A stretch of 64,000 nucleotides of DNA from Diphasiastrum complanatum. Taxonomy: Eukaryota > Streptophyta > Lycopodiopsida > Lycopodiales > Lycopodiaceae. Both the position numbers and the translations under genes were made by a program. The notes under the pieces were generated by a model. That model had not been told where the DNA came from, did no database searches, and worked only from the letters and a program-made list of their open reading frames with translations. Within the stretch, counting starts at the first letter, position 1, and the number at the start of each line of letters is the position of its first letter. Shown here piece after piece: positions 1,266-63,535 of the stretch. Location: assembly GCA_029204225.1 (NCBI GenBank), contig CM055107.1:44646044-44710043 (forward strand), given 5' to 3'.

Positions 1266-3502
1266 TCCTTCTGGATCACCCACGTGAATCAGAGCTTACC
1301 AGGATCTCGACTATTTGATCGGCAATAACATTGACGAATTTCTTTTCGACCCGGGCTCCTCCGTACTCACCATCTTATTGGAAGGGTTGTACACCGAGAG
1401 CGAAGCTAGTAGATCTCTTTGCATGCTCGGATGCACTGTTCTGCCCCATGGGAGCTCAATTGTCTCCAATCCTTGGTCAGATCTTCCACTCCATCCAATA
1501 CAATCCCCAACAACAAGTAGAACTTGCAACCTGATGCTCCAGTTAGATTATCCAATAGAAATGTCCCTCACAAGCCGCGCTATTAGAGGCGTCCTCAAAA
1601 GCCTATCAAGCCCTGAAGAGTGGAGTTATTTTGATCCCATCAGGGTTGTGTCTCAAATGGGGGCCGATGCAAGCTATGAGTTCAGAGCTGGAGGACTTGT
1701 AAAGGAAGCTTGTAAGGGTGCTGCCCCAAGTGCGGAAGATACGGAAATTAGTCGTGGCTATCACATCTGTACTATAGTGAGGGAGTCGCTGAATGGGCAA
1801 CAGTTGGAGCCACTTTTCAACTGGAAATGCATTAAGTCTGAGGAATATTGCGCCAAGCTTGGTCCTTTCAAGAGCAAAGGGGGTTTACCTGTGCCAAGAA
1901 ACGGCTCGAAGATTTTGATTCAAGATGTCAGGTGCGTCGAGCTGGAGGATGAACGTTCAGGAAAAGTTGCAAATATAAGTGCTGTCTTCAGAGCAATTCC
2001 TCCAAGTCAAGATCAGAACCTTGTCTTTCGGCACATGGGCCTGGATGGGCTTACTCTTGTGGCAGAGGGCATGTGGAGCTCAGGGAAACTCTGCATGATT
2101 GCTTGTGCCGATGGCTCTCAGACGGATTGTAACATTAGGATCCGTCTTTACATCCCAACTGAACTTTCAATCACTCAAAGGAGCGTGCTTGTTGGCACCA
2201 TTTCCAGCTTAGATGGAAATGATGCTATTTCCTTTGATCCCTTGTCATTCCATCAGCCGGTTTCTCCCGGTTTTCGTTCAAGTATTCTAGGCATGCACTA
2301 CAAGTATACCAAAATCAACAATGTAGGTGCCATTATGAAAAGAGAAGAACCTCTTGGCCAAAGCCAAAAGATCGGATCCTCATTGCTGAAGTATCCCTCA
2401 ACTCGCAGCTACTATTCATTGAGTGAGGACCTTAGAGTGCGTTCACCTATCATTTCACAGAAAAGCTTTCACTCACCAAGTTATTTCGGCTTAAACATCA
2501 TTGCCATAGAGAAATTTGTGATTGACTGGACCCGTTTATCCAACTTTTCTACGGAGGTTGCTGTAGAACTATCACCCCAAGCTGGCCATGTGGGTCCTAA
2601 AGAAGAGGGGAAATTTGTGAAGGTAGCTGCTCAATTGGTGGTAAGCCATCCTGAAATCCCTGAAACTAGGTCTCCGGTGATTCATGGAGAGGGACTCTAC
2701 AACCCTAGAACAGGTAAGATGTATCTCGTGGGCTGTAAATAGGTAGCTGCAGCATGGCAAGTATTGCAAAACAACAAGTTTAATTTGGTTGATGGGCTGG
2801 ATTGCAATGTTGAAGTCATTGATCGATTCCCTCCAAAGAATGCTGAATTGCTGGTCAAACCGACAGTCAGTGTACAATCACTAGTCGCCGTACCAAGGAT
2901 GATCCTTTTTTCTCTCCTCAGGTCAGTTTGCAAACAAGTCAGCATCTTTATCAACGGCAAAGGAAGGGGATCGTCACTAGAAAGAGCCTAGAGGCTGGCC
3001 TTCGTCTGGTGACATTGTCCTTAATGCCGATGTGCATTGCCAGCGAACTCATCTATATTATAAAAAACAAAGATTCAGCTCCTTTTTCTCTCTTGTCATG
3101 CTCGGCGTTCAGGCAATGAGCTATGGGGTCTCTTTAGTAGGTGATGAAGCTTTTTATGCAAAGCGTCATTTTAATAGGCATGAAGCCAGGTTTTCAGAGT
3201 TGGGAGAAGGTGAATGGACTCAGGAAATCATGTTTCTTAGTAAGCTTCTCCTTTTGGTCACCTTTCTTTTTAGTATACATCTTTGTCAAAAGGTTGTCAA
3301 GGCACGTATTCAACTATGTACCCAACGCCCATTGGAGCCCGGAAGAATCCCAAGCGAAAGAAAAGTTTTCCTGATCTTTCTTCTCATTCATGCAATGGGC
3401 TTTCTGTTAGTGCTTACTATGAATTCTTTGTACAACAGAACAAGCCAGGTCATAGTCAGATCTGTTGAATGGCAACAACATGTCAAAGAGCAAAATGCAC
3501 AA
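1266..3502 (+). pseudogene. DUF2921 family membrane protein, copy A (decayed)
   Basis: This is a truncated copy of the gene at 37044-40240. It starts inside the N-terminal extracellular domain and keeps the signature GLYNPRTGKMYLVGC. It continues through the transmembrane region to the VEWQQ segment, where it stops matching copy B at about 3502. Lesions: an internal 5' deletion of about 60 bp at a shared AAT (near 1286), an in-frame TAG at 2740-2742 where copy B has GAG, a 1-bp deletion near 2870, and later frame changes. DUF2921 proteins are plant-specific, with a signal peptide, long extracytoplasmic domains and C-terminal membrane spans; their biochemical role is not established to my knowledge. 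The 5' edge is fused to a copia zinc-knuckle sequence, so no native promoter is attached. Confidence 0.85.
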
Positions 3503-3922
3503 AAACAGCTATATACTGCAACTTTTCCAATGGTTTTACAGAAGAATCCAAATTCGTCATAATACAAAATCGACGGATTATAAAAAATTTCAAAAAGCAT
3601 GCAAATTTATACAAGCCAGTAGGCTATAGACACACAATAAAATTTTGTATATTAGATAAAAATATTTACAAAGTACAATTCAGCAGTATCTAATCTGCTT
3701 CCGATATTTTTTCCAATGAAAGTTGCAACTTAGAATCATGCAACAATTTTCTTCTTTCATATGGATCCAATAGCTCATAGTTTTCATGCTTACTCAGATC
3801 AACGTAAGCAACATACACTACAAAATGAGATGATCTGAACATGGAATTCACTAGTCCATATCCTAAAATTTTAACCGCAATAGTTTTCTTTACAAAAATT
3901 GTTTTATGCACCTTATTAAAAT

Positions 3923-4196
3923 AGTTAGAATTAAAGTAGAATCATTGTGTTACTGTACTGTGGGTCCTATCAGTTGATAAGGATCAGTTGGCCTCGCCAC
4001 GAGGCAAGTCGACGAGACACGCGTCCCGCCAACGGCAACCTGGGTCATGCATGGGTTGTCTGAGTGAACAACTATATGTACAGTGTAATTTCATTTTGAG
4101 AAATACAGTTGCTATGTTGGCTTGCTGTGGAGAGTGTTTTTTGTCTGTGTTACTATGTAGCATGATCTGTGTTCCTGTGTAAAGCAAATTCTAAGT
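3923..4196 (+). repeat. 5' LTR of copia element
   Basis: This 274-bp repeat starts AGTTAGAATT and ends AATTCTAAGT, a near-perfect short terminal inversion without the usual TG...CA ends. The limits are set by the AAAAT TSD, by the adjacent PBS, and by two further copies with the same ends. Confidence 0.88.
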
Positions 4197-5274: not shown

Positions 5275-8200
5275 TTGTCATCTAATCAAGATGATCAAGC
5301 ATGGTATATTGACTCGGGAGCCACAAGACACATGATAGGTAACAAGAATTGGTTCAGTAGCTTGAAAGTGTTGCATAATGGAATGTCCGTTTCACAAGCA
5401 AATGGTAAGGTGTGCAAGATCAAGGGGATAGGCACTGTTTTAATCCAACTACCTGATGGCAAAAGCAGAATGATCAGGGAGGTACTTTACGTACCAGGTT
5501 TGAAGAAAATCTACTTTTTGTTGGAGTCATTACTGATCAAAAGTTGAAAGTAGAATTTGCCCATGATCGCTGCTTTGTGAAGGATGTGAACCAAAAGTTC
5601 AAAGTTATTGCGGATGGAGTAAGGGAGCCCAATACAAAATTGTACAGATTGAATGCTACAATCAAGGGGAACATAGACTTGTATCGTCCATTCCATCACA
5701 AACTAAGTTGTGGCATAAGAGGCTTGGTCACTTGAACTTGAAAAGCCTCAATTTGATGAGGAAATTGGAGATGGTAATAGGATTGCCTACCATTGAAGAC
5801 CACTTGAAATTGATGTCGAATCATGTGTATATGGGAAGCAGCATCGAGAGAAGCTCAATAAAGGTGGTGTTTCAAGAGCAAAGAACATCCTGGATTCAAT
5901 CCACATAGATTTATGCGAGCCTATGAGGACCATGTCCTTAGGTAAAGGCTTCTATTTCATGACCTTTTATTGATGATATGTCACGTAAGACATGGATCTA
6001 CTTCTTGAAGAAAAAATCAGATGCATTTGACAATTTCAAGAGCTTCAAAGCATTGGTCAAAAGTCAGACAGGTAGGAAGATCAAAGTCCTAAGATCAGAT
6101 AGTGGAGGTGAGTACAAGTCTAATGACTTCAATGATCTTTGTGATCAATGTGGGATTAAAAGACAATTTACGCAAGCTCATACTCCTGCTCTCAATGGTG
6201 TAGCTGAGCGCAAGAATCGTACGATTGTGGAAAGTGCCAAATCTATGCTAGCTGAGATGAAACTATCAAAAGAATTTTGGTCAGAAGCATGCAGTACGGT
6301 AGTCTATCTTCAAAATAGAAATCCTACCATTGCCATACCAAAGATAACACCTAAGGAAGCATTCACGAAGAAGAAGCCAAAGGTGAACCACTTGCGAATC
6401 TTTGGATGTAAGGCCTTTGTACACATTTCTAAGGAAGAGAGATGTAACCTTGATGTAAAAGCTATCAAGTGTATATTCCTAGGATATGATGATCGTGTGA
6501 AGGGCTGTAGATATTTTGATCCAGTGGAAAACAAAATCCATGTAAGCCGTGATGTTATCTTTGATGAATCCAAGATGTATGAGACGAGAATGCTGAGAAG
6601 ATAGATACATCCAGTGGGAAAGATGGTATAGTGAGGATATTACCTAATGATGATCCATTCATTGACCTTCCAAGTGATGAAAAAGAGGATACATCTCAAG
6701 ATACTACTACTCAACCTCAAGAGACAGGTTGGAGAGGTAGGAACAAACCTTTGGTGCAAGAAGGATTAAAATTGCAGGTGACAAACGCAGGGAGAAGGAT
6801 GTTTTGTGGCATACATTTTCACCAAGAAGCCAATCACCTGACAGGAAGCTCCCTAAGTGGTTTGAGAGATTGTTGGAGACCCGTGATATGGATGACTTTC
6901 CTAGATCATCTAGCCAGGGAGAGCTACGAAGATTAACAAGAGAGAAGACACAACCTGAAAGATATGAAGCAAATTGTGCTCTCTTATCTAGCATTATTCA
7001 AAGCAAAGAACCTTTGACTTATGGTGAAGTGAAGGATGATGACATTTGGGTCAAGGCCATGGGAGAGGAGATGGAGTCAATTGCTAAGCATAGCACGTGG
7101 GACTTAGTAGAACCACCAGTTGGCAAGAAACCCATTGGTTGCAAATGGGTATACAGGACTAAGTACCATGCAGATGGAAGTATAGCAAAGCACAAGGCAA
7201 GATTGGTGATCAAAGGGTATGCACAAAGTAAAGGCATCGACTATGAGGAGACCTTTGCGCTGGTATGTAAGTGGAATACTCTACGTCTACTTGTTGCTTT
7301 AGCTTCACATTTTGGTTGGCCTTTGCATCAGATGGATGTGAAATCTGCTTTTCTAAATGGTGAGCTAGAAGAAGAGGTGTTCATGGATCAACCTGAAGGC
7401 TTTGTAGCAAAGGGACAGGAAAATAAAGTATGTCACTTGAAGAAAGTGCTTTATGGTCCTAAACAGGCACCACATGCGTGGTATAGCAGGACTGATGCCT
7501 ACTTTCATTCAAAGGAGATGGTGAGAACACACTCTGATCCAAATCTATATGTCTTATGCTTTGATGGTATGGTTGCTTTGATTGCTCTTTATGTTGATGA
7601 CTTGATTATTACGAGAAATAATCAAGAGATGATAGATATGATCAAGAAAGACCTCATGGAACAATTTGAGATGACAGATCTCAGCCTAATGCATTATTGC
7701 CTTGGTGTAGAAGTGTGGCAAAAAGAACACGAAGTGGGTTTAACACAGGTGAAGTATGTCAAAGAGTTGCTGCACAGGTTTAGGTTGCAGGATTGCAAAC
7801 CAGTGAATACTCCTATTGAACCAGGTAAAAAGCTTTCTAAGCTTGATGAGTCACAGTCATTTGATGCTATGCTATATAGGCAGTTAGTAGGGGGCTTGAT
7901 TTACCTTACCACGACTAGACCAGATATATGCTATGTTGTTGGCATTGTAAGTCAATTTATGGCAGCACTACAAAAACGCATTGGAAGGCAACTAAACGCA
8001 TTTTGCATTATGTGAAAGGCACTTCAAATTATGGCTTGATTTACAGGAAGCATGATGGGTTACTTGAGTTGTGTGGTTATGTGGATGCGGATTGGGGAGG
8101 TGACTATGATGATCGTAGATCCACCACAGGGTATGTATTCCAGTTTTGTGGTAGTTTCTTTTCCTGGTCTAGTAAGAAGCAAAGCACAATTGCTCTATCC

Positions 8201-8593: not shown

Positions 8594-8867
8594 AGCTAGA
8601 ATTAAAGTAGAATCACTGTGTTACTGTACTGTGGGTCCTATCAGTTGATAAGGATCAGTTGGCCTCACCACGAGGCAAGTCGACGGGACACGCGTCCCGC
8701 CAACGGCAACCTGGGTCATGCATGGGTTGCCTGAGTGAACAACTATATGTACAATGTAATTTCATTTTGAGAAATACAGTTGCTATGTGAGCTTGATGTG
8801 GAGAGTGTTTTCTGTCTGTGTTACTATGTAGCATGATCTGTGTTCTTGTGCAAAGCAAATTCTAAGT
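8594..8867 (+). repeat. 3' LTR of copia element
   Basis: This is the 274-bp partner of the 5' LTR, starting AGCTAGAATT directly after the polypurine tract and ending AATTCTAAGT before the AAAAT TSD. Confidence 0.88.
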
Positions 8868-10102
8868 AAAATTATGTCCTCCAAGAAAATGAGATAGTGC
8901 CTTGATTGCCATAATCATAGTTTCACCATGTTGATGAAACTTTGAATGGGCAACACTTATCTCATTATTCTTGAAGGACTTTAGATAGTGCCCGAGTGCG
9001 TGATCTCTTGAAAATTCTCCCGCAGAAGGTCTCTGCCCTCCTCGACGAATTGCGAAATCATCAAGGAAAATTGTTTCCTGAAATGATAAAAAACAAAGTA
9101 AGCTCCAGTATATAATCTGACATAACAAATCTACTAGTACTTGATAAGAGACAAAAACTTATGCATTCGGCTTTGTCTTCTCTGATTACTGTCTCTCCAT
9201 CAATATTATGTCCACCTTTCGATGTCAATATTGTTGGTGAATAGACAGTTGGCTATGGAAAACCAAGTTGACTTTGGATTCTAAGAAACTCCTCCTCAGA
9301 AGGTAGATCATCTTCTTTGTTGCGCATTTCCTCCACAGCCATTTTCAAGAAATCTTTCCCTGAATAGAACTTATCATTATGTACATCGTCAACACCAAGG
9401 AGAAGGTCGTCATCATCAAAATCAATTATATCTGAAAATTCATCAAGCCCTTTGTTCAAAATGCAAAGAGTCTTAGCTTCAGTGAAGTCAAAAGATCCGA
9501 TATATCTGATATTGTCAAAAAGGAATTATTATCTATATTATAAGTAGGCAAAGTGATCAAAGATTTATCAGAAGGAGAAAGCGTAGTGGGTGTTCTAGGG
9601 CCTATAAAAGTAGCCCTATTTCGAGCATGATCAAAATCAGAACAATCATCTAAATTAACACTCGTGTCAATAAAAAAAGGTATCTATATCTACAATCTTT
9701 GACTTTTCAGACTTTGTACCACTAGAAGAAGCTGCTTCAGAAGTGGAGGGCGCAAAGTTCGAATCTTCGGAAATATTTAACAAAAAGAAAAAAACAAAAG
9801 CAGACTGAAAATCAACAAATCTACATTTTTTTATTATGAATTGGGCACTCATCTACCTACTTGAAATCATTATGTAACTTGGTAAACATTCTGTCAAGCT
9901 TAGCTTTGTAGATATGCTTGTCGAGTGCCACCAGGTCCTGATAATGAATCATGTCTTTATTCTGAGACCTGAATAATGGAGTACTGAGCAGGGACTTAAA
10001 TTTGAGATATATCTCAGAAAATGCCTCCACACCAGGGCCCTCAGTTATAAAAGGTAGAATAAAAAGAAAAGGAGAAAAAAAAGATTTGAAATAGTCCAAC
10101 AT

Positions 10103-11404
10103 ATGAGTAATACCAAATTCATTAAAAAAGAAAGCAAACTGGATTCAAAATTAGACATTTTAAATAAAAATAATAGAACTGAAGTTACAAATATTACTCT
10201 CAGGCGCAAACTCCAGGTCAAACAAGCACGTCAAGGCAACGTGCGCGCAAGAGAGATATTGCAAGCTGGAGTATCGGATTCGAGCGCAAGAACAACGAGC
10301 AGAAAAGAAAAGGGATACGAAACGTGCTTGAATGCGATATCGGGGGATGCAGTGTCGGATCCAGGCGCATAATAGTCAACGAGACGTAATGAGAGCAAGC
10401 GACGCTCTTGAAATCGATATCCGACAAAGCAATCGTAAATTTTCATGAAAATTCGAGCCAAAAAGAACCTATTTATATAAAAATTTTTGCACGTGTGGAG
10501 GAGTGACGAAGGAACACGTGTTGACATGTGATTGGCCAAAATAAATACACCGTACCTTGAATGATTGATCTGACATCTGTCACGTGCGAGAATGACACAC
10601 GTCGATAAGGGATTTGCGCATGTGTCTCAACCCACGTGTCCCCGTAATTGGGTCATCATTATCAGTATGGACATTCCACGTGGTCTAATCATCTGACGAC
10701 ACGTGTCTCGACCGTCTTTTCACACGTGCGAAAACTTGCAAAAATTCAAAAAAAAAAGAAAGCAAACTAGATTCAAAATTAGACATTTTAAACAAAAATA
10801 ACACAAGTGAAGTTCCAAATATCACTCTCAGGCGCAAACCCCAGGTCCGACCAGCACGTCAAATCAACATGCACTCGAGATGCAATATCGGATCCAAACG
10901 CATAATAACCAACGAGATGTAATGAGAGCAAGCGACGCGCTTGAAATCGATATCCGGCAAACCCATCGTGAATTTGCATGAAAATCTGAGCCCAAAAAGA
11001 CATATTTATAAAAAAAAATTTGCACGTGGTCTAATCATCCGACGACACGTGTCTCGGCCGTCTTTTCACACGTGCAACAATTTCGTATATATAAGTCCTC
11101 GAAATTTTCATTTTTTTTGGCAAAATTTTTGCTTTTAGCTCCCGATATCGCTCTCAAGCGCGCTCTTTCACTTTTCAAGCTTCTGCTTTCTCACAGTGCG
11201 CTCGAGTCCGATACCGCCTGCTGTGCAATATCGCTTTTGAACGCGCATCTCTTTTTTGCAAATAACCTCTGTAGATCTTGTGCTCAAAATCGATATTCAG
11301 TGTTGGTATCGATCTCAAGCGCCCTTTCATTGCAATGTTTTTTGTTTTGATGCACTTTTGTTTTGTTCAAACTTCTTTTTGTTAATTTTTTTCTTCCGAG
11401 AATG
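10103..11404. promoter_or_regulatory. divergent promoter region with duplicated G-box array
   Basis: This region lies between the unknown minus-strand gene and the plus-strand H3-like gene. A block at about 10128-10740 is repeated at about 10757-11077; the second copy lacks an internal stretch, apparently lost between two CACGTG motifs. Ten perfect CACGTG boxes start at 10490, 10515, 10581, 10633, 10677, 10700, 10723, 11023, 11046 and 11069. The last three in each block are exactly 23 bp apart. A TATA box TATATATAAG (11086-11095) lies about 310 bp before the plus-strand ATG. TATATAAATAG on the minus strand (10470-10480) could serve the minus-strand gene. G-boxes bind bZIP and bHLH factors in plants; use here is inferred. 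Confidence 0.6.
10128..11077. repeat. direct duplication of promoter block
   Basis: Two diverged copies (about 10128-10740 and 10757-11077) share AGAAAGCAAACT, CACTCTCAGGCGCAAAC-type sequence, a TATA-like stretch and the G-box triplet. The second copy is shorter by about 280 bp because the part between TTGCACGTG and GTGGTCTAATC is missing. Confidence 0.75.
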
Positions 11405-11914
11405 ATGGCTAGGACCAAATCCATTGCCCATGCCATCACCATTGTACAGCCATCCCATTCTCGTGTTCCCCTTGATATTGGTCGTAGGCATGGCAGGAAG
11501 CAGGTCTGGCTGAGGGAGATCAGAAAGCTCCAGAGATCAACTGAGTTGTTGATCCCTAGAGCTCTTTTCGGCCGATCTGTACGGAATGTCACTCTGTCAC
11601 TTGGGCTGGATGTTCGTTTTGCCGTGACAGCCATGCAGGGCGCTACAGAAGTTTTTCTGTCTCAGTTTTTTGAGGATACTTGTCTTTTGGCAGTGCGTGG
11701 TAAGCATGTCACCATCATGCCAAAGGACTTCGTCATTCTCAAAAGGCTTCGGGAAAGATATTCTGGTCTGCATGTTGATAATGCCAGCACCTTCAGAGAC
11801 CTGCCTCTGGATAGAACGAACGTGCCTACTACCTCTAGGAGGAAGAGAAAGCAGGCTGTCCCCAAAAAGGCTGGATCTCGAAGGCCAGCTGCTTCCCTTC
11901 CTCCTAGAATCTGA
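11405..11914 (+). CDS. histone H3-like protein (N-terminal part of a larger gene)
   Basis: The 169-codon frame starts MARTK, identical to the start of histone H3 after Met; an ATG directly upstream would add one Met. The tail is short (about 33 residues) and lacks the ARKS contexts of K9 and K27. The H3 fold follows in order: alphaN LREIRKLQRSTELLI (36-50), alpha1 RALFGRSVRNVTLSLG (52-67), alpha2 RFAVTAMQGATEVFLSQF (71-88), FEDTCLLAVRGK (89-100), and VTIMPKDFVILKRLR near alpha3 (102-116). STELLI, FEDT and VTIMPKD match canonical H3; alpha1 and alpha2 are strongly diverged. A basic C-terminal extension (SRRKRKQ...KKAGSRR) looks like a nuclear localisation signal. This frame ends at 11914; an acidic, Pro-rich segment continues in the next frame. 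It is a divergent H3 variant, perhaps CenH3-like, in a repeat-rich context. Deposition or function is unknown. Confidence 0.8.
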   Translation: MARTKSIAHAITIVQPSHSRVPLDIGRRHGRKQVWLREIRKLQRSTELLIPRALFGRSVRNVTLSLGLDVRFAVTAMQGATEVFLSQFFEDTCLLAVRGKHVTIMPKDFVILKRLRERYSGLHVDNASTFRDLPLDRTNVPTTSRRKRKQAVPKKAGSRRPAASLPPRI

Positions 11915-12125
11915 CTCAGATCGAGAATCTTCACCCAGTCCTCCTCCTGTTATTCGTCCAGCTCCTCAGCAGGTTTCATCACCAAAAGTGTTGATTACCC
12001 AAGAGGAGCTAGACAGAATAACAGAGAAATCTGTAAATATTCTTTCCACTTCTGTTTCTACTCCTGTATATAATATTTTTGTGAGAATTTTATACGATCC
12101 AGCCCAGGTTTTTTTTTTATTCTGA
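11906..12125 (+). pseudogene. linker of the H3-like gene, shifted frame
   Basis: Immediately after the H3-like frame the neighbouring frame stays open and protein-like: ESDSDRESSPSPPPVIRP, then TQEELDRITEKSVNIL. The composition suits a disordered acidic/Pro linker followed by a helix. A one-base frame change or a short unseen intron near 11905 would join it to the H3-like part. A further fragment (DHYNQYEAYLANKIDLLGN) follows at about 12122-12180. Confidence 0.5.
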
Positions 12126-12203
12126 CCATTATAATCAATACGAGGCCTACCTAGCTAACAAAATTGATCTTCTCGGCAACTTTTTTGATTTTTTTTCTTC
12201 CAG

Positions 12204-13445
12204 ATATACGTAGAAGCTTTAGATTAGGTCCCAAATTTTGTGTCGAGCTAAAAGATAAGACCTCAGAAATTTCAGATGCAATAGTAGAGGCTGGAGTTTC
12301 TTTTTGCAGAATAGTATTAGTCTCGATTCTCATGGTACAGTTTTTGTAGTTAGTCCATTTTTCATGGGAGTGGTAAAGGCGAAAGAAGCCAATTTTGAGA
12401 AGGCTATCTATTTTATCGAGTGCAGTCCTATGGCGAAATTTTATTTGATTCCATATGAAAATAATTAAGGTCTCTTTTGTTTTTGTTGCTTTAATCTGGA
12501 TTGTTACATGCCTCATTGCTTTAATAAGAACAGAATTTTTTCATAAATATGAATTTAACGATATTTGTATCTTGGTTGTTGCAGTTGACATTGGAGCCTA
12601 AACATTCTTTTTATAAAGATAAATAAGGAGGGAGTATCAAATTTTCTATGTGTAAAATTAAACTCAGCTGCAAATACACATAGAGAATTTGATTTTCTAC
12701 TTCATGATGCCATTCGAGAAATACCGACAATGGCAACTTCAATTGGAGATATAAATATTAAATCTCTCAAGGTATATTCAATTTATCTATGATATGCATG
12801 TATTCCTTTTTTAATTCAAATGTATTGTCATAGCATAAATAAAATTTCTATCATAATATTACTAATTTTTGTTCTATATATGTAGTGTGTACAACAAAAT
12901 GACGCTTTTAGTTGTGCATGGTTCATCCTGTACAATACGAAGCTATTTTTTGAATGGTATAATTTACAAGTGGATGTAGATATTGAAAAGGTAATATCCA
13001 ATTCATTTGTAGTTCCTTTCATTCTGATTCAAATTTTTTTACTATCATTGTTTGTAATTTGCCAATTCTCGTGTTTTGTGATGACAGTTCACTCTTGAGC
13101 CATATACTCCTGATGGTGTATATAGATTTCGGCAAGAGTTGATCAGAACCTTTGTCCAATATGGTGTAAGTGTTGCACCTGCAATCGAGGGCCCTCAAAA
13201 GGAAGCTGCTCCTGCCTTAACATCCTTTCAGGTTGTTCAGGATGCAGATCTTATTTTATATGATAAAAAAAAGAATAAAAGTCCTTCGTAATACAGAGGA
13301 AGGCAATTTTGTAGCAGATATTCCTCTTGCCTTAAAAGGCATTGAGGCCCTTCTCGTAACAGAGGAGGGCGAGATTATAGAAGGAGCTGTTGCTTTATCA
13401 GTTCCTAATACTGATATAGAAAATATAAAAAAAATGATTGAATAG
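12204..13445 (+). pseudogene. Ulp1/C48-like cysteine protease domain, C-terminal part of the gene
   Basis: Conserved pieces lie in exon order. KFYLIPYEN (ends about 12465) precedes an intron; then HWSLNILFI has the catalytic His-Trp at 12589-12594, and VKLNS replaces the usual LDS, with Asn at the catalytic Asp position (12661-12663). After an intron at 12772-12885 comes CVQQNDAFSCAWFI, with the catalytic Gln region and Cys (12913-12915). After an intron at 12991-13087 comes YTPDGVYRFRQELI. A poly-A frame slip near 13264 leads into EGNFVADIPLALKG, ending at 13445. C48 proteases cleave SUMO/ubiquitin-like tags and are often carried by plant transposons. A TGA directly before the His codon, the first intron's TAA-containing donor side and the Asp-to-Asn change suggest inactivity. 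Confidence 0.65.
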
Positions 13446-13784
13446 AGATCTATTTGTAAATAGAGAACATAAAAAAAGAAAGATACAATAATTATACTTG
13501 TAAACAACCCGTTCATTTGTTTTTTTTTTATTGATATCACAATAGATTCTTACAATCAGCTTGTGTCCATAGTCTAATAATGGAATGCAATTTTTCTATA
13601 ATGATAAAAAGACATTGGCATGTATTTGCTGATAGGGAATCTCAATGTTCTTCCATAAGTTGGATTGTTTCGCCAATATCTCTGCATTTGATCTCGAGCT
13701 CATGTCTTTTACGTACTTGCTTAAAACTAATACAAAGTTAGTTAGAATTAGTATGGAGTTTGTATTAGAAAGTTTTGATTGAAA
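13446..13784. other. intergenic stretch between convergent genes
   Basis: AT-rich and contains no clear gene. A minus-strand frame ending at about 13641 (KQVRKRHELEIKCRDIGETI) is protein-like and could be a last exon of the minus-strand gene on the right, but no splice phase could be fixed. Confidence 0.3.
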
Positions 13785-14045
13785 CTATTCATAAAGGATC
13801 GAGTGTTTACAGTTACTTACGAGTTTACCATTGAAAATGAATCTGAAGTCTGAAAGTACATCATCTTGTAGGAGCAATAGTTCCCGCCGGATGTAGTTTA
13901 GACTCCAATCTTTTTCCACCTCAACACATGTCAAAACGTCATCATTGTATATAATTTCAATATTTTTTTGTTTTGAATGTCCACTGGCTTCCAAGTCTTG
14001 ATCGAGTGGCACCCATTTACCTTTATTTTTTTTCATCTTTGACAA
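13785..14045 (-). pseudogene. ubiquitin-fold-like ORF, possible C-terminus of the DUF7869 gene
   Basis: The frame reads KGKWVPLDQDLEASG, then EIIYNDDVLTCVEVEKDWSL and RRELLLLQDDVLSDFRFIFNG. The pattern of two strands, a helix and 'FRFIFNG' resembles a small beta-grasp domain, but I cannot assign a family. It follows the DUF7869 frame after an A-rich run where a frameshift is likely, so it may be the same protein. A GTAAGT donor-like site follows NGKL. Confidence 0.35.
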
Positions 14046-15540
14046 TGGAAGTATAAGCTCAACATTTGTTTTTCAATTTGATAACGGAAGCACATGGAAG
14101 ACATTTTAATTCTGCATTCTATTTCTCCATCTGATCTTTTGTCCCGGTATCTGATAAATTTTAGCATACAAACATCGTTGGGGTTTTGTGTTCCAAAGCT
14201 GTTCAGCAACCATTGTGGCCAAAAAGCTTCTTGTGTGTATGTTGATGCCAACAAATTCTTCTATTTAGAAAGATATTCAAGAAGATTTATACTTTCAACA
14301 GCACACACATCATTTCAATCTTTTTCTAGAAAGTTTTTACTCATATATCGGGCATACTCAATGAAAGATATTGTTCCTTTTACTTCATCTTGATCTAGGT
14401 TCTTTCTGGGAGCTAGAAATATTGCTTCATCTTTTGACGGTATAGACTGCAAGAGTTTGAAAGGTTCACTCCATGAGTTTTCTCCATCATTGGAATAGTA
14501 CTTCCATTGCATGATCGGCTCACCATTTGACATTTGAAAATGAAAGTAATGAGGATTAATATGTCCTTCCAAGCCATCGTTTCCATGAACAATATATGGA
14601 TCTATAAATCCTTTCCAATCTATCATTCATTCTAATAACTCAACCTCGGATGTTTCAATACGATCACCACCTATCTTTTGACCAATTCGTGCTAGCATAT
14701 CTGGCATTATAAGAATAGAATTAGATTTCAATTCTCTGGATATGACATTGAAAACTTGGTCAATGTCTTCATGTGTGTGGCCAACCATTAGAACTCCCAT
14801 CTCAACCATTTGAAAAATGTTATGTGCCACTAACATAGAACAAAGACCAAATATAAATCTGTTCTTGTTCTCCCTCCAACCGTTGTCCGCTTGAATGCGC
14901 AAGATCGGTGCCAAACTACCGCGTGATGCATGCAACTTCCTTATTGCTCCCATTACTGATGTGGCAACTTGGTTACTATCATGAAGATGCAAGGTATCAA
15001 TCCATACATCATCACACAACAATTTGTATCCATGAAACTAGCACTCCACAAACATGAGTTTTTAAAAAATGCTTGCCCTCCAATCTGGGAGGCGTCCTCT
15101 TGAAACGGGATAATGTTGTTGTATTTTGATCCATACAGTCAATGATAAGGCACACTGATTGGTCGGGATGCAATCTTGACTCTTCTTTCCAATACACATA
15201 TAGCTTTCTTGAATAAAAAACGTGTTGCAAGTATCAACCTCTTAGTCCAATGTAGCGATCACGGATCCTATTGTCCGTAGTCTTCTCTATCACATTTTTG
15301 AGGTCATCGCATGTCTTGCATTTGGGAATTCTTTGTTTTTTTTTGGAGTCTTTACATGTCGAAACTCTCGTCTCCACATTCGATAAAGTGTGGGTTTGGA
15401 GATTGTGGACATGCCACTGTCTATAAGTCATGTGTTTATTGTTTTGAAAACATCACCTTTATGCATGCTGAGAGATCCTCGAAAATATTAGAAGGTGCTG
15501 CATTTGGCTTATCTTGTTCATTAAGAAAACATGAAAACAT
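14046..15540 (-). pseudogene. DUF7869-domain protein (DDE-transposase-like), decayed
   Basis: Read right to left: KCKTCDDLKNVI, then YWKEESRLHPDQ and IIDCMDQNTT (15230-15040). Next come KTHVCGVLV, then after a one-base frame change DDVWIDTLHLHDSNQ, QADNGWRENKNRF and VGHTHEDIDQVF (15022-14627). An in-frame TGA at about 14627-14629 is followed directly by DWKGFIDPY...INPHYFHFQ, which also fits the family. More stops follow near 14310-14260. Proteins with these IDGMDQ, DN..RENKN and VGHTHEDID signatures are numerous in non-seed plants, fungi and invertebrates. They look like an RNase H-fold (DDE) enzyme, which I infer rather than know. At least three lesions make this copy inactive. Confidence 0.75.
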
Positions 15541-27837: not shown

Positions 27838-28570
27838 CTCTCTTGAGTTATGCTAAGCATAAGTCAAGAGCCAGCATAGTCGGCTCCTGACTAATGTTGA
27901 GCATAAGTTGGGAGATGAGCTATGTTGAGCATAGGTCGGCTCTCGGCCTATGCTCTCAGCATAAGGCAAGAACAGACCTATGCCGAGCTATGTCGAGCAT
28001 AGGCTCACTCCCGACCTAATTCTTGAGCATAAGTGGGGAGAGGACCTAGGCTCGACATAGCTCTATGTTGAGCATAAGTCGACATCGGTCCTATGATCAA
28101 CATAGGCCGGGTCATGACTTATGTTGAGCATAAGTTGGGAGCCGTCCCATGCTCAACATAGGTCGGCTCCTAACTTATGCTAAACATAAGTGGAGAGACG
28201 AGCTATGCTCAACATAGATTGGCTCTCGACCTATGCTCAACACAAGGCAACAACAAACCCATGTTCAGCATAGGCCCTCTCCCGACTTATGCTGAGCATA
28301 AGTCGGGAGAGGGCCTATGCTGAACATAGCTCGTCTCTCCACTTATGCTCAGCATAAGTCAGGAGACGACCTATGTTGAGTATGGGTTGGCTCCCAACTT
28401 ATGCTCAACATAAGTCAAGAACCAACCTATGCTAAGCATGGTCCTCTCCTGACTTATGTTCATCATAAGTTGGAAGTGAACCTATGTCGCGGGTCGTGAC
28501 TTATGCTGAGCAAAAGTTACTAGCAGACCTATGTTCAACATAGGTAGACTCCTACTAAGCAAGGGTCTTC
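27838..28570. repeat. array of imperfect palindromes (TATGCTNAGCATA type)
   Basis: About twenty variants of TATGCTGAGCATA or TATGTTGAGCATA occur in roughly 730 bp. They are spaced about 30-45 bp apart, with recurring linkers such as AGTCGGGAGAGG and GGTCGGCTC in both orientations. Each unit is itself a short palindrome. Another unit lies at 28688. Nothing in it is coding. It could be a decayed foldback element or an expanded transposon subterminal repeat. Confidence 0.85.
28261..28327. repeat. 67-bp palindrome with 33-bp perfect arms
   Basis: Positions 28261-28293 and 28295-28327 are exact reverse complements around a single central G (28294). The arms read ATGTTCAGCATAGGCC outward-in and end in CGACTTATGCT at the centre. 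Such a sequence can extrude as a cruciform. Confidence 0.95.
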
Positions 28571-37043: not shown

Positions 37044-40000
37044 TTATGATGTGCTTTCTTGGAGGAGACCATTACCTTTTTCTGAGTCATGATTAGAACT
37101 ACTTGGAGGAACGTTTGGTATAAGATCAACCTCAAAGAGCTTTGAAGGTAGTCTCTCAAGCATATTGGATGCATGACACTCCATCAGCTTGCTCGAATCC
37201 TTTTGAAAAATTTTCCATCTTTGTTGATCGTAGAGAGCAAAAGCAAGAACCAAAGTTAGGAGTGGCATTGCTATATTAGCCTTAAAAGTGAGGTCTGAAT
37301 TAAAATAGATGGGTTCTCTTGAACTATCATATGCATGGGGCAACATGCATAAAATGGTCAGTCCTATGTAATAAACAGGTCCAAGAGGTTTCCCTTCGAC
37401 ATCCCAGATAGCTCCTCCAAGGACTTGTGGTAGGAGAAAGAGATCCTGAATTACACCTCCATACCCCATCAATATCTCTTTCACCCATATTGCATTTTGG
37501 TTTTTGGCAGGTTGTTGCCATTCAACAGATCTGATTGTTACCTGGTTTGTAAGCACTAACATAAAAAAGCCCATTGCATGAATGAGAAAACTCATTGCAT
37601 GAATGAGAAGAAAGATCAGTAGCACTTTTCTTTCGCTTGGGATTCTTCCGGGCTCCAATGGGCGTTGGGTACGTAGTTGAATACGTGCCTTGACAACCTT
37701 TTCACAAAGATGCATATTCAAAAGAAAGGCGACCAAAAGGAGAATCTTATTAAGAAACATGATTTCCTGAGTCCATTCACCTTCTCCCAACCTTGAAAAT
37801 GTGATTTTCCGAGTCCATTCACGTTCTCCCAACATTGGCAAGGCTTCATGCCTATTAAAATGACGCGTTGCATAAAGAGCTTCATCACCTACTATGAAAG
37901 GGACCCCATAGCTCATTGCCTGAACGCCGAGCATGACAAGAGAGATAAATGGAGCTGAATCCTTGTTTTTCCTAATATAGATGAGTTGGCTGGCAATGCA
38001 CATCGGCATTAAGGACAATTTCACCAGACGAAGGCCAGCCTCTAGGCTCTTTGTAGAGACTATCCCCTTCCTTTGTCGTTGATAAAGATGCCGACTTGTT
38101 TGCAAACTGACCTGAGGAGAGAACAAAGGATCATCCTTTGTACGGCGACTAGTGATTGTCACATTGACTGTTGGTTTGACCAGCAATTCAGCATTCTTGG
38201 GAAGGAATTGAACAATGACTTCAACATTGCAATCCAGCCCATCAACCAAATTAAACTTGCTGTTCTGCAATACTTGCCATGCTGCAGATACCTCTTTACA
38301 GCCCACGAGATACATCTTGCCTGTTCTAGGGTTGTAGAGTCCCTCTCCATGAATCACCGGAAACCTAGTTTTAGGGATTTCAGGATGTCTTACCGACAAT
38401 TCAGCAGCTACCTTCACAAATTTCCCCTCTTCTTTAGGGCCCACATGGCCAGCTTCGGGTGATAGTTCTACGGCAACCTCTGTAGAAAGGTTGGATACGC
38501 GGGTCCAGTCAATCACAACAAATTTCTCTATGGCAATGATGTCTAAGTCGAAATAACTTGGTGAGTAAAAGCTTTTCTGTGAAATGATAGGTGAATGCAC
38601 TCTAAGGTCCTCACTCAATGAATGGTAGCTGCCAGTTGAGGGATACTTCAGCAATGAGGATTTGATCTTTTCGCTTTGGCCAAGAGGCTCTTCTCTTTTC
38701 ATAATGGCACCTACATTGTTGATTTTGGTATACTTGTAGTGCATGCCTAGAATACTTGGACGAAAACCGGGAGAAACCGGCTGATGGAATGACAAGGGAT
38801 CAAAGGAAATAGCATCATTTCCATCTAGGCTGGAAATTGTGCCAACAAGCACGCTCCTTTGAGTGATTGAAAGTTCAGTTGGCATGTAAAGACAGATCCT
38901 AATGTTACAATCCTTCTGAGAGCCATCGACACAAGCAATCATGCAGAGTTTCCCTGAGCTCCACATACCCTCTGCCACAAGAGTAAGCCCATCCAGGCCC
39001 ATGTGCCGAAAGACAAGGTTCTGATCTTGACTTGGAGGAATTGCTCTGAAGACAGCACTTATATTTGCAACTTTTCCTGAACGTTCATCCTCCAGCTCGA
39101 CGCACCTGACATCTTGAATCAAAATCTTCGAGCCGTTTCTTGGCACAGGCAAACCCCCTTTGCTCTTGAAAGGACCAAGCTTGGTGCAATATTCCTCAGA
39201 CTTATTGCATTTCCAGTTGAAAAGTGGCTCCAACTGTTGCCCATTCAGCGACTCCCTCACTATAGCACAGATGTGATCGCCACGAATAATTTCCGTATCT
39301 TCCGCACTTGGGGTGTTGCACCCTTACAAGCTTCCTTTACAAGACCTCCAGCTCTGAACTCATAGCTTGCATCGGCCCCCATTTGAGACACAACCGTGAT
39401 GGGATCAAAATAACTCCACTCTCCAGGCCTTGACAGGCTTTTGAGGACGCCTCTAATAGCGCGGCTTGTGAGGGACATTTCCGTTGGATAATGCAACTGG
39501 AGCATCAGGTTGCAAGTTCTACTTGTTGGTGGGGATTGTGTTGCATGGAGTGGAAGATCTGACCAAGGGTTGGACACATTTGAGCTCTGATGGGGCAGAA
39601 GAGTGCATCCGAGCATGCAGAGAGATCTACCAGCTTCGCTCTCGGTGTAGAACCCTTCCAATAAGATGGTGAGTACGGAGGAGCCCGGGTCGAAAAGAAA
39701 TTCCTCAATGTTATTGCCGATCAGATAGTCGAGATCCTGGTAAGCTCTGATTGCTAGCTGCAAAACTGCACTGACCTGCAGTGCTTCCTGTTTTCCATGT
39801 CTCTTTTTATTCACGTGCGTGATCGAGAAGGATGAGAACTGAATTGGATCAAAGCTTGATTCGGTCACTCCATCTATGGACAAGTGGGATGACCAACTGA
39901 AACTGTCGGGCCGCAAGGGCAACAGTGGAGGGCTCCCAGCTGCTTGCTCCCATTCACCATTCCGAAATGAGAGCTCTTTCTCTATGGGCCATTTTAGAAG

Positions 40001-40240
40001 TGGTCCATCGTGCGTGGATGAAGAAGAGGAGCTGCGTCTGCCACGGTCACTCCTGCCGCTTGATGAGGCATTGCATTTCTCCTCTACCTCGTCGCTTCGC
40101 CTGTAACTGGATCTGTAATTGCCATTACTCCTGGTAGTTGCTCTAATGACTTTCCGATGTCTTTCTTCATACGGCTGACCGAAGGCTGCGCTTGCAAGAA
40201 TGAAGAGTAAAGCAATCACGATCTTCCATAACATCCACAT
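37044..40240 (-). CDS. DUF2921 family membrane protein, copy B (nearly full length, one frameshift)
   Basis: About 1,060 residues in two frames (40240-39260 and 39260-37044), the usual family length. It starts MWMLWKIVIALLFILASAAFG, a clear signal peptide. A long extracytoplasmic region with paired DUF2921 repeats follows (SFDPIQFSSFSI; ISFDPLSFHQPVSP), then GLYNPRTGKMYLVGC, and C-terminal membrane spans (SLVMLGVQAMSYGVPF, KILLLVAFLLNMHL, LIFLLIHAM, YYIGLTILCMLPHAYDSS). Relative to copy A there are 2 extra bases near 39315 (after EACKGA) that break the frame; without them the protein is open throughout. In-frame tandem duplications absent from copy A are a 14-residue unit at 37759-37839 and an LIHAM unit near 37590. 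Role unknown. It may be a recent pseudogene, or the frameshift may be a sequence error. Confidence 0.85.
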
Positions 40241-40588
40241 AACTGCAATGAGTATTGATGAGCAATGGAATTGATCTGAAGCTTACAACAACAGATTGCT
40301 TTGCCCCGCTTTTCTGATCCCAGGTGCTACGCGCATTGGATGCTGTAACAGAAATCAGAAAGCCCAATCCAAAAGAGAGCAAGAAAAAGAAATGCAGCAG
40401 ATAGGTCATTGGTCAAGTCTATGTATGTACATATCTTATAGAGAGAGAAAGGAGGCACACAGCACGGAGACAGAACGAGTGAATAGAAAGGAGACACGAA
40501 GACGGATCAAGTCAAGAGAAAGAGAGGGTCAAGTAGAGACAAGATCAAGTCAAGAGAAAGAGAGGGTCAAGTAAAGACAATCAAGTCA

Positions 40589-62010: not shown

Positions 62011-62365
62011 GTGGCGCCAGGTTGGCTTCCAGCGCTCGTGACGAAGCTTTCAGTTGGTTAAGTCTGATGTAAGTCAGACCGCTTGCTTGGAATGGATGTT
62101 AGTCATTTGTAACGAAGCTTCGAGTTGGTTAAGTTTGATGTATGTCGGGCGGCTTGCTTGGAGGGAAGTCACCCACATCGGGACCCCCGATCTGGCATGG
62201 CGCCAGGTTGGATCTCAATGTTGATTTTCGGAACTGCAAGTTGGTTAAGTCTGATCGTTGTTGGCGAGTTGGCTGCTTGTATGTCAAGTGGGTTTGGATG
62301 GCAAGAGTTGAAGGCTGGGAAGCTAAGTCGTGGTTCCCGGCTCCCTTTGGGATGCCTGCCCTACA
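62011..62365 (-). repeat. dispersed repeat R, copy 4 (5' part only)
   Basis: Reads on the minus strand from TGTAGGGCAGGCATCCCAAA at 62365 to CCAACCTGGCGCCAC at 62011, corresponding to the first 350 bp of copies 3 and 5. It bridges DUF2921 copy C and the copia fragment. Confidence 0.75.
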
Positions 62366-63158
62366 GAATACTTGGACGAAAATCGGGAGAAACTGGTTGA
62401 TGGAATGACAAGGGATCGAAGGAAATAGCACCTTTGCCATCTAAGCTGGAAATTGTGCCAACAAGCACGCTCCTTTGAGTGATTGAAAGTTCGGTTGGGA
62501 TGTAAAGACAGATCCTAATCTTACAATACTCCTGAGAGCCATCGGCACAAGCAATCATGCAGAGTTTCCCTGAGCTCCATATGCCCTCTGCCACAAGAGT
62601 AAGCCCATCCAGGCCCGTGTGCCCAAAAACAAGGTTCTGATCTTGACTTGGAGGAATTGCTCTGAGGACCGCACTTATATTTGCAGCTTTTTCTGAACGT
62701 TCATACCCCCGGTCGACGCACCTGACATCTTGAATCAAAATCTTCGAGCCGTTTCTTGGCATAGGCAAACCCCCTTTGCTCTTGAAAGGACCAAGCTTGG
62801 TGCAATATTCCTCAGAATTATTGCATTTCCAGTTGAAAAGTGGCTCCAACTGTTGCCATTCAGCGACTCCCTCACTATAGCGTAGATGTGATCGCCACGA
62901 ATAATTTCTGTATCTTCCGCACCCTTACAAGCTTCTTTTACAAGACCTCCAGCTCTGAACTCATAGCTTGCATCAGCCCCCATTTGAGACACAACCGTGA
63001 TGGGATCAAAATAACTCCACTCTCCAGGCCTTGACAGGCTTTTGAGGACGCCTCTAATGGCGCGGCTTGTGAGGGACATTTCCGTTGGATAATACAACTG
63101 GAGCATCAGGTTGCAAGTTCTACTTGTTGGTGGGGATTGTATCGAATTGAGTGGAGGA
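62366..63158 (-). pseudogene. DUF2921 family fragment, copy C
   Basis: A 0.8-kb internal piece of the DUF2921 gene, matching about 38755-39560 of copy B: MLQLYYPTEMSLTSRAIRG, DPITVVSQMGADASYEF, then QLEPLFNWKC-type sequence and ITQRSVLVGTISSLDG. A 1-bp deletion near 62876 breaks the frame. Beside the copy B frameshift site it lacks 12 bp relative to copy A (KGAEDTE), likely lost between repeated GTGC words. Both ends abut repeats. Confidence 0.85.
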
Positions 63159-63162
63159 TTTA

Positions 63163-63535
63163 TGTTGTAAACTACCTAAGCTTTACTTCCGGCGCCATCG
63201 GTGCCAGCTATGTCCCCAACGCCAGCATCGCCCTGGCTATTCCCGGCGACAATGGCGTCGGCGCCGCTCTCGGCGCCACTGTGACCAGAATCTAGTCGGC
63301 GCCAAGTTTCTATGCCTGAAAATCTTTGATCGGTTCTAGCGGAGTCCAGAGAGCTCAGATCGATGTGCAATCACCTCACACGATCTAGGCATGATTAAAG
63401 GAAGCCTGGGGATCAGTAAAATCTAGAGAGATAAAATGACTTTCTAGAAAGAGAAAATTCTAGAGAGAAAAAAATGTGCTTTACCAGCTTGGGTAGAGTG
63501 CTTGGTATGGGGGGGGGTGCCGAATCACACCAATA
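63163..63535. repeat. TGTTGTAAA-start repeat with GGCGCC-rich block
   Basis: Starts TTGTAAACTACC...AAGCTTTACTTCCGGCGCC; the same start appears at 63957, and the gypsy LTR also starts TGTTGTAAAGCTA. The core 63185-63305 is dense in GGCGCC and is the reverse complement of the block at 48815-48930. The end (GTGCTTTACCAG...GAATCACACC) resembles part of the gypsy LTR near 46055-46125. Probably a related LTR remnant. Confidence 0.55.

Follow-up and report, generated by a model that had tools for sequence, protein, structure and literature searches.

A diverged histone H3 fold and an Ulp1-like region in one gene of a repeated TIR transposon of Diphasiastrum complanatum

Introduction

Does the histone H3-like frame found in a 64,000-nucleotide stretch of Diphasiastrum complanatum DNA (hereafter, the window) form one gene with the Ulp1-like exons that follow it, and what might such a protein do for the mobile DNA in which it lies? 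The first-pass annotation of the window, made from the sequence alone, had proposed that the two parts are joined in a single repeat-borne gene. A search of the open-licence PMC literature turned up no description of an H3-Ulp1 fusion encoded by a transposon, and few systems are known in which a transposon makes an anti-silencing protein.

The gene as it stands in the window

Regarding the histone part, the open reading frame at 11405-11914, of 169 codons and beginning with MARTK as first noticed, is a real H3 fold: the histone profile PF00125 matches it with E=4.7e-18 and 66 bits, well over the curated cut-off of 26.4, and a PDB sequence search with the same frame returned histone H3 as its best matches, at E=3e-18. 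The domain (11405..11911, plus strand) has a short tail (ARTKSIAHAIT...) and is decayed; 9 nt, or three codons, of helix alpha2 are absent relative to 22 of 25 copies. The two motifs cited for the protease are both present as they had been written, on the same strand, HWSLNILFI starting at 12589 and QQNDAFSCAWF at 12886.

As for the rest of the gene, what remains of exon 1 lies in shifted frames at 11904..12464 (plus strand) and comprises a linker and the N-terminal Ulp1-like part (...FVVSPFFMG...FYLIPYEN), which is continuous with the H3 fold in another copy of the genome (L039:3843-4946); the stretch between the H3 and the Ulp1-like exons is exon 1 sequence in other copies and no intron. At about 11900 the window gene has lost about 57 nt and carries a frameshift, with more small frameshifts elsewhere. 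Copy comparison places a decayed splice donor at 12465..12470 on the plus strand (TTAAGG, against GTAAGG in L039 and L040). Translation together with copy comparison defines three further plus-strand exons: exon 2 (12585..12771) with the HW pair of HWSLNILFI, directly before which there is an in-frame TGA where L039, L040 and L042 have CGG; exon 3 (12886..12990) with QQNDAFSCAWF, which holds the presumed oxyanion Gln and catalytic Cys; and exon 4 (13088..13445), the C-terminal part (FTLEPYTPDG...KKMIE stop), with one frameshift, whose end at 13445 is the 3' limit of the gene. The H3-like and Ulp1-like parts of the window are kept apart by frameshifts, by the loss of a splice donor and by a stop and, because the gene is broken at several places, the window alone cannot prove that they belong together.

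One gene in the other copies

The same genome (a 1.745-Gb assembly in 5176 contigs) was searched with the H3-like frame, and the best 150 of 7343 first-look candidates were scored; these have 79-100% identity in alignments that cover the query wholly or for the most part. One of them, L039 (the same as L016), has a single open exon of 368 codons that runs from MARTK through the H3 fold (PF00125, E=2.1e-23), a basic stretch and an acidic/serine linker into the N-terminal Ulp1-like part; in the genome protein search, the open frame of this copy is 397. Copy L042 supplies the remainder, with GT-AG introns, exons bearing RHWSLNILFV and CV.QNDAFSCAWF, and then the C-terminal exon. The exon structure was thus pieced together from more than one copy: exons 1 and 2 are open in L039, whose exons 3 and 4 are broken, and exons 2-4 are open in L042, whose exon 1 is frameshifted. 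Among five long copies examined, not one is open in every exon.

The order of H3, linker and Ulp1-like part is retained in 23 of 25 aligned copies, a count of order and not of intact frames, made on copies that were chosen by H3 score, that include a few near-duplicates, and whose alignment to the reference register conceals frameshifts; the two exceptions, L013 and L017, are rearranged past the linker. The diverged H3 and the Ulp1-like region are one gene of a mobile element, and the fused architecture is established. The original proposal is supported in part: it stands as to the fusion, on the open exon of L039 and the shared order, and is still a hypothesis as to an altered chromatin at the element and a protease acting on SUMO, the C48 profile scoring below its cut-off.

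The element that carries the gene

The carrier is a highly repeated TIR DNA transposon with inverted termini and precise bounds, in agreement with the mobile element of the original proposal. The terminal inverted repeats read CATTAG...CTAATG; by copy comparison, the left end is CATTAGAGAAAATATGGGCCC... and the right end ...GGGCTCTAAGTTTCTCTAATG. When the left end was used as a query, all 40 matches scored (the best 40 of 1644 candidates) ran from base 1 to 299 or 300 with 97-100% identity, and the flanks of the fifteen left ends retrieved differ, except in three duplicated pairs. Seven of the 40 left ends have one of the 150 scored H3 matches 4.6-6.2 kb downstream of them, in the same orientation. 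The right end is present in three of four further copies examined for it, and the four copies with both ends measure about 8.9 (C1), 8.5, 10.2 and 10.3 kb. A target-site duplication is apparently absent: judged by eye, none of the four copies with two flanks repeats at least 2 bases. At one insertion site, within a copia ORF, the rejoined flanks match the copia of the window at 6083-6105 without gaps and with 2 mismatches; at a second copia insertion site, the reading frame continues from one flank to the other, as judged by eye.

In the window, the left piece of the element was located at 3497..3922 (plus strand) by self-comparison and copy comparison; a Copia element, with LTR copies at 3923-4196 and 8594-8867, splits the copy, and the right end was not found in the window. 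Beyond the Copia element lies a decayed opposite-strand neighbour, gene X (8862..10144, minus strand, defined by copy comparison), which has a relative in the second H3-like family described below. Between the divergent gene X and the H3-Ulp1 gene, direct repeats hold 10 CACGTG sites (10490..11074, within a stretch of about 640 bp at 10450-11090), and five other copies (L039-L042 and L044) have clusters of their own, with 4 to 16 such sites; the cluster may serve as a promoter or as an array of binding sites. Past the fused gene, the 3' part of an opposite-strand gene (13541..14191, minus strand) is common to L042 and L044 (to 14191) and to L040 (to 14145). A decayed DUF7869 gene follows at 14315..15472 on the minus strand, identified by a profile match; having no match in six 10-kb copies of the element, it is a candidate member at most. 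The protein closest to its ORF is P0121 (72%, 425 aa), from an ENA contig; a tblastn of the ORF against plasmids gave no match. In a separate pattern search of viral contigs, five stretches matched and none was confirmed.

Other repeats also occur in the window. A repeated protein-coding sequence, which we take to be of a DUF2921-type family, is present in three copies (1288-3562, 37044-40282 and 62361-63175), two of them inverted relative to the first, with aligned arms 93-97% alike; an array of short repeats of the AGCATAGG/CCTATGCT type, with inverted arms, lies at 27881-28563.

Regarding the transposition machinery, the long left gene of the element carries C(2)C and H(4)H residues, recognised by eye as PCLYC and HICTLH in L041:101-883, and gave no transposase profile match; no MULE transposase or VANC profile was found among the matches in the scanned parts. 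A C(2)C + H(3-4)H motif is described for CMCT transposases in the available part of one report (PMC12730594), and the CA..TG termini fit the CMCT clade (CACTA/EnSpm, Plavaka, Transib...). The 2-5 bp target-site duplication of that clade, seen by eye in 0 of the 4 two-flank copies, does not fit.

The H3-like domain and its relatives

Canonical H3 is near-invariant in sequence and has a tail with K9, K14, K27 and K36. In the element, K4 is kept in all 25 aligned copies; position 9 is A in 23 of them, with one K and one V, position 10 is I in 24, and position 14 is Q in 23 and a stop codon in the other two. The tail is shortened, and the counterparts of K27 and K36 are absent from the 25 copies. 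Copies picked by their 5'UTR agree with this pattern, with K4 in six and A9 in all of the seven that have a readable tail, two of which are near-duplicates. Within their H3 part, the 25 copies have 10 TAG, 6 TGA and 0 TAA stops, a bias that would be expected from the decay of methylated CAG and CGA codons (CHG and CG sites); a TAA stop is present in one 5'UTR-picked copy.

Ordinary host H3 was found at 13 places, scoring 163.7-165 bits versus at most 109.5 for the others (histone profile, best 150 of 6325 candidates), and the eight places retrieved all hold canonical H3; in the protein database, the 120 best of 6323 matches to the H3-like ORF are all of H3 type, many being tandem H3 annotations. 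With a fold about half identical to that of host H3 and with altered tail residues, the domain is ruled out as a canonical replication H3. Recent capture from host H3 is unlikely too, given this distance together with a clade of its own.

That clade comes from a small tree of 21 rows and 95 columns, which used the seven of eight first-family and five of six second-family rows that passed the pattern, with L013 untrimmed, and two CENH3 rows entered by hand; in it, two element families form separate, well-supported clades outside H3 plus CENH3 (support 89/87). The tree bears on the idea that the element H3 derives from CENH3 and puts the element into centromeric chromatin, for which speak the LIP.APF, AAED and KDF motifs, presumably resembling those of plant CENH3. 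Loop 1 is longer in CENH3 than in H3, as is also visible in the alignment made here, and the loop 1 of the element fold has no insertion relative to H3; moreover, the H3-like matches are spread over many contigs and positions (best 150 of 7343). With a tree that, small and with two hand-entered CENH3 rows as it is, lends no support to a CENH3 origin, this idea is highly improbable.

The second family in the tree is repetitive as well. A different H3-like fold (...KFLIPRAPFVRLVKEI...CAVHGKRVTILPKD...RRERN), 47-49% identical to that of the first family, is present in all six copies retrieved (L070-L075, 103-110 bits), which were taken from the top of the list. It stands at the end of a longer protein, whose longer N-terminal part is proline-rich in most copies; the ORFs reach 208-330 aa in three copies, for example L075:2-628. 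The opposite-strand neighbour of this family is related to gene X (E=1e-10, 32% over 65 aa), and no Ulp1-like part was detected in the 2.2-2.3 kb around each of the six copies.

The Ulp1-like region

As for the second part of the fusion, the profile check advised for it gave a mixed outcome. PF02902 matched the joined exons of the window with E=0.035 and 0.023 and exons 2-4 of L042 with E=0.015, in register for both; the bit scores of 14.4, 14.9 and 15.6 are all below the curated cut-off of 20.7, and the L041 version gave no match at E<=1. A PDB sequence search with the region returned nothing relevant (one chance match, E=0.8), and the non-histone part of the joined protein had no match at E<=10 among 2468 candidates of the protein database. 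Catalytic residues were surveyed in 24 copies, of which 22 have a readable exon 2 and 19 a readable exon 3: His is kept in 20 of 21, Trp in 20 of 21, Gln in 16 of 17 and Cys in 17 of 19, and the usual position of the catalytic Asp, placed by eye, is apparently Asn. Since every profile score is below the cut-off, the assignment rests on position and on the conserved catalytic residues; the region is likely an Ulp1-like cysteine protease, which is to say Ulp1-like and not proven C48.

Selection on the gene

Selection was evaluated on 22 copies picked by H3 similarity (L013, L017 and L032 were dropped), with the neutral mutation spectrum taken from the 5'UTR. On inner branches, N/S relative to neutral was 0.30 for the H3 fold, 0.65 for the linker and 0.45 for the Ulp1-like part; on end branches the values were 0.58, 0.90 and 0.71, respectively. 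In these H3-picked copies, the fold is under tighter constraint than the linker (Fisher p=0.059 on inner and 0.007 on end branches), and no difference from the linker was seen for the Ulp1-like part (p=0.73 and 0.77). Pairwise omega over the 25 H3-picked copies was 0.36 for the fold, 0.64 for the tail, 0.82 for the linker and 0.46 for the Ulp1-like part, and likelihood profiles of the 22 copies, with kappa fixed at 2.5, peaked at 0.5, 0.7, 0.8 and 0.5-0.6, respectively.

Other copies were picked by their 5'UTR, the best 40 of 1280 candidates being scored and eight of the 40 retrieved; two of the eight are without all or much of the fold, and a third is a near-duplicate. For the remaining five, all of which carry one stop or more, the N/S of the H3 fold, computed together with the reference, was 0.73 of neutral (bootstrap 0.4-1.32); a larger 5'UTR-picked set (n=9), which included two rearranged copies and a near-duplicate, gave 0.95 (0.75-1.17). 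Choosing copies by H3 similarity biases toward conserved ones and, given the 5'UTR-picked values, purifying selection on the H3 fold is suggested rather than shown, and the evidence for it is weaker in the copies not chosen by H3 similarity.

Proposed function and alternatives

The reading that we tentatively prefer, with somewhat less than even confidence, is that the fusion protein is an anti-silencing factor of the element. The H3 fold would pair with host H4 and then enter or disturb the nucleosomes on the element DNA; its tail could bear K4 marks and not K9 or K27 methylation, so that chromatin with the element H3 would resist H3K9-linked silencing, and the protease part might strip SUMO from nearby chromatin proteins. 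This role is favoured because of a tail that lacks K9 and K27 and keeps K4, and because of the analogy with the Ulp1-bearing VANC of VANDAL elements; in the available part of the source, hypomethylation of related elements is associated with VANC genes that include an Ulp1 domain (KIU; PMC13317346). The weak C48 scores, the Asn at the Asp position, the stops in 5'UTR-picked copies and the one copy with K9 count against it.

These stops, together with the stops or frameshifts of many other copies, suit instead a diverged H3 and an Ulp1-like piece that were captured long ago and are copied as decaying baggage with no function for the element, as does the fact that selection is not detectable in the 5'UTR-picked copies. 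Such baggage sits poorly with an order that persists in 23 of 25 aligned copies, with an H3 fold more constrained than the linker among H3-picked copies, with K4 and catalytic residues that are mostly retained, and with a second family that also has an H3-like fold and a related neighbour gene; we hold this explanation to be rather doubtful. The protein might otherwise serve targeting or transposition, its histone fold tethering the machinery to chromatin and its Ulp1-like region acting either on host SUMO at the site of insertion or on the transposase. The CMCT-like C(2)C and H(4)H residues seen by eye in the long left gene of the same element point that way (PMC12730594, as far as its available part goes); no contact with a transposase is known and the flanks, two copia ORFs included, have no obvious preference (by eye), and this role seems distinctly unlikely.

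Returning to the anti-silencing factor, a bolder form of it would be that plant transposons evolved their own class of "non-silenceable" H3, with K4 kept, K9 and K27 lost and a SUMO-protease-like domain attached, which blocks heterochromatin, the two families being branches of one old histone-bearing lineage; we consider this extension rather unlikely. If the anti-silencing reading is true, an H3 without the heterochromatin lysines, joined to a protease-like region, would give a parasite a direct way to rewrite its own chromatin, the escape of selfish elements from H3K9 methylation would become testable with one protein, and histone genes could turn into working transposon parts and not accidental passengers.

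Comparison with known systems

Several systems share one trait or another with this element, as described in the available part of each source. The VANDAL/KIU (Kaonashi) elements are likewise plant DNA transposons with an accessory gene that has an Ulp1-type domain; they are non-TIR MULEs with VANC, whereas the present element has TIRs and an H3 fold, and matches Ulp1 less well (PMC13317346). Oomycete Cryptons likewise bear a C48-type accessory protease in a mobile element, but they are tyrosine-recombinase elements and their account, in its available part, makes no mention of a histone, which is present here as an H3 fold (PMC3212892). Fungal DNA transposons with a TET/JBP dioxygenase likewise bear an epigenetic enzyme, with another protein and in another host kingdom (PMC12730594).

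As for histones in selfish DNA, a hAT transposon of Pseudocercospora fijiensis with a captured histone H3 is the case in which H3 was likewise multiplied to hundreds of copies by a DNA transposon; that H3 is a fungal housekeeping one, inactivated by RIP, whereas the element described here is from a plant and has a diverged H3 with an altered tail and a fused domain (PMC6710886). Finally, giant viruses likewise have histone folds in selfish genomes, some of them fused to unknown domains; these are viral and mostly doublets, with no protease mentioned in the available part of the source, whereas the gene described here combines an H3 fold with an Ulp1-like region (PMC9145170).
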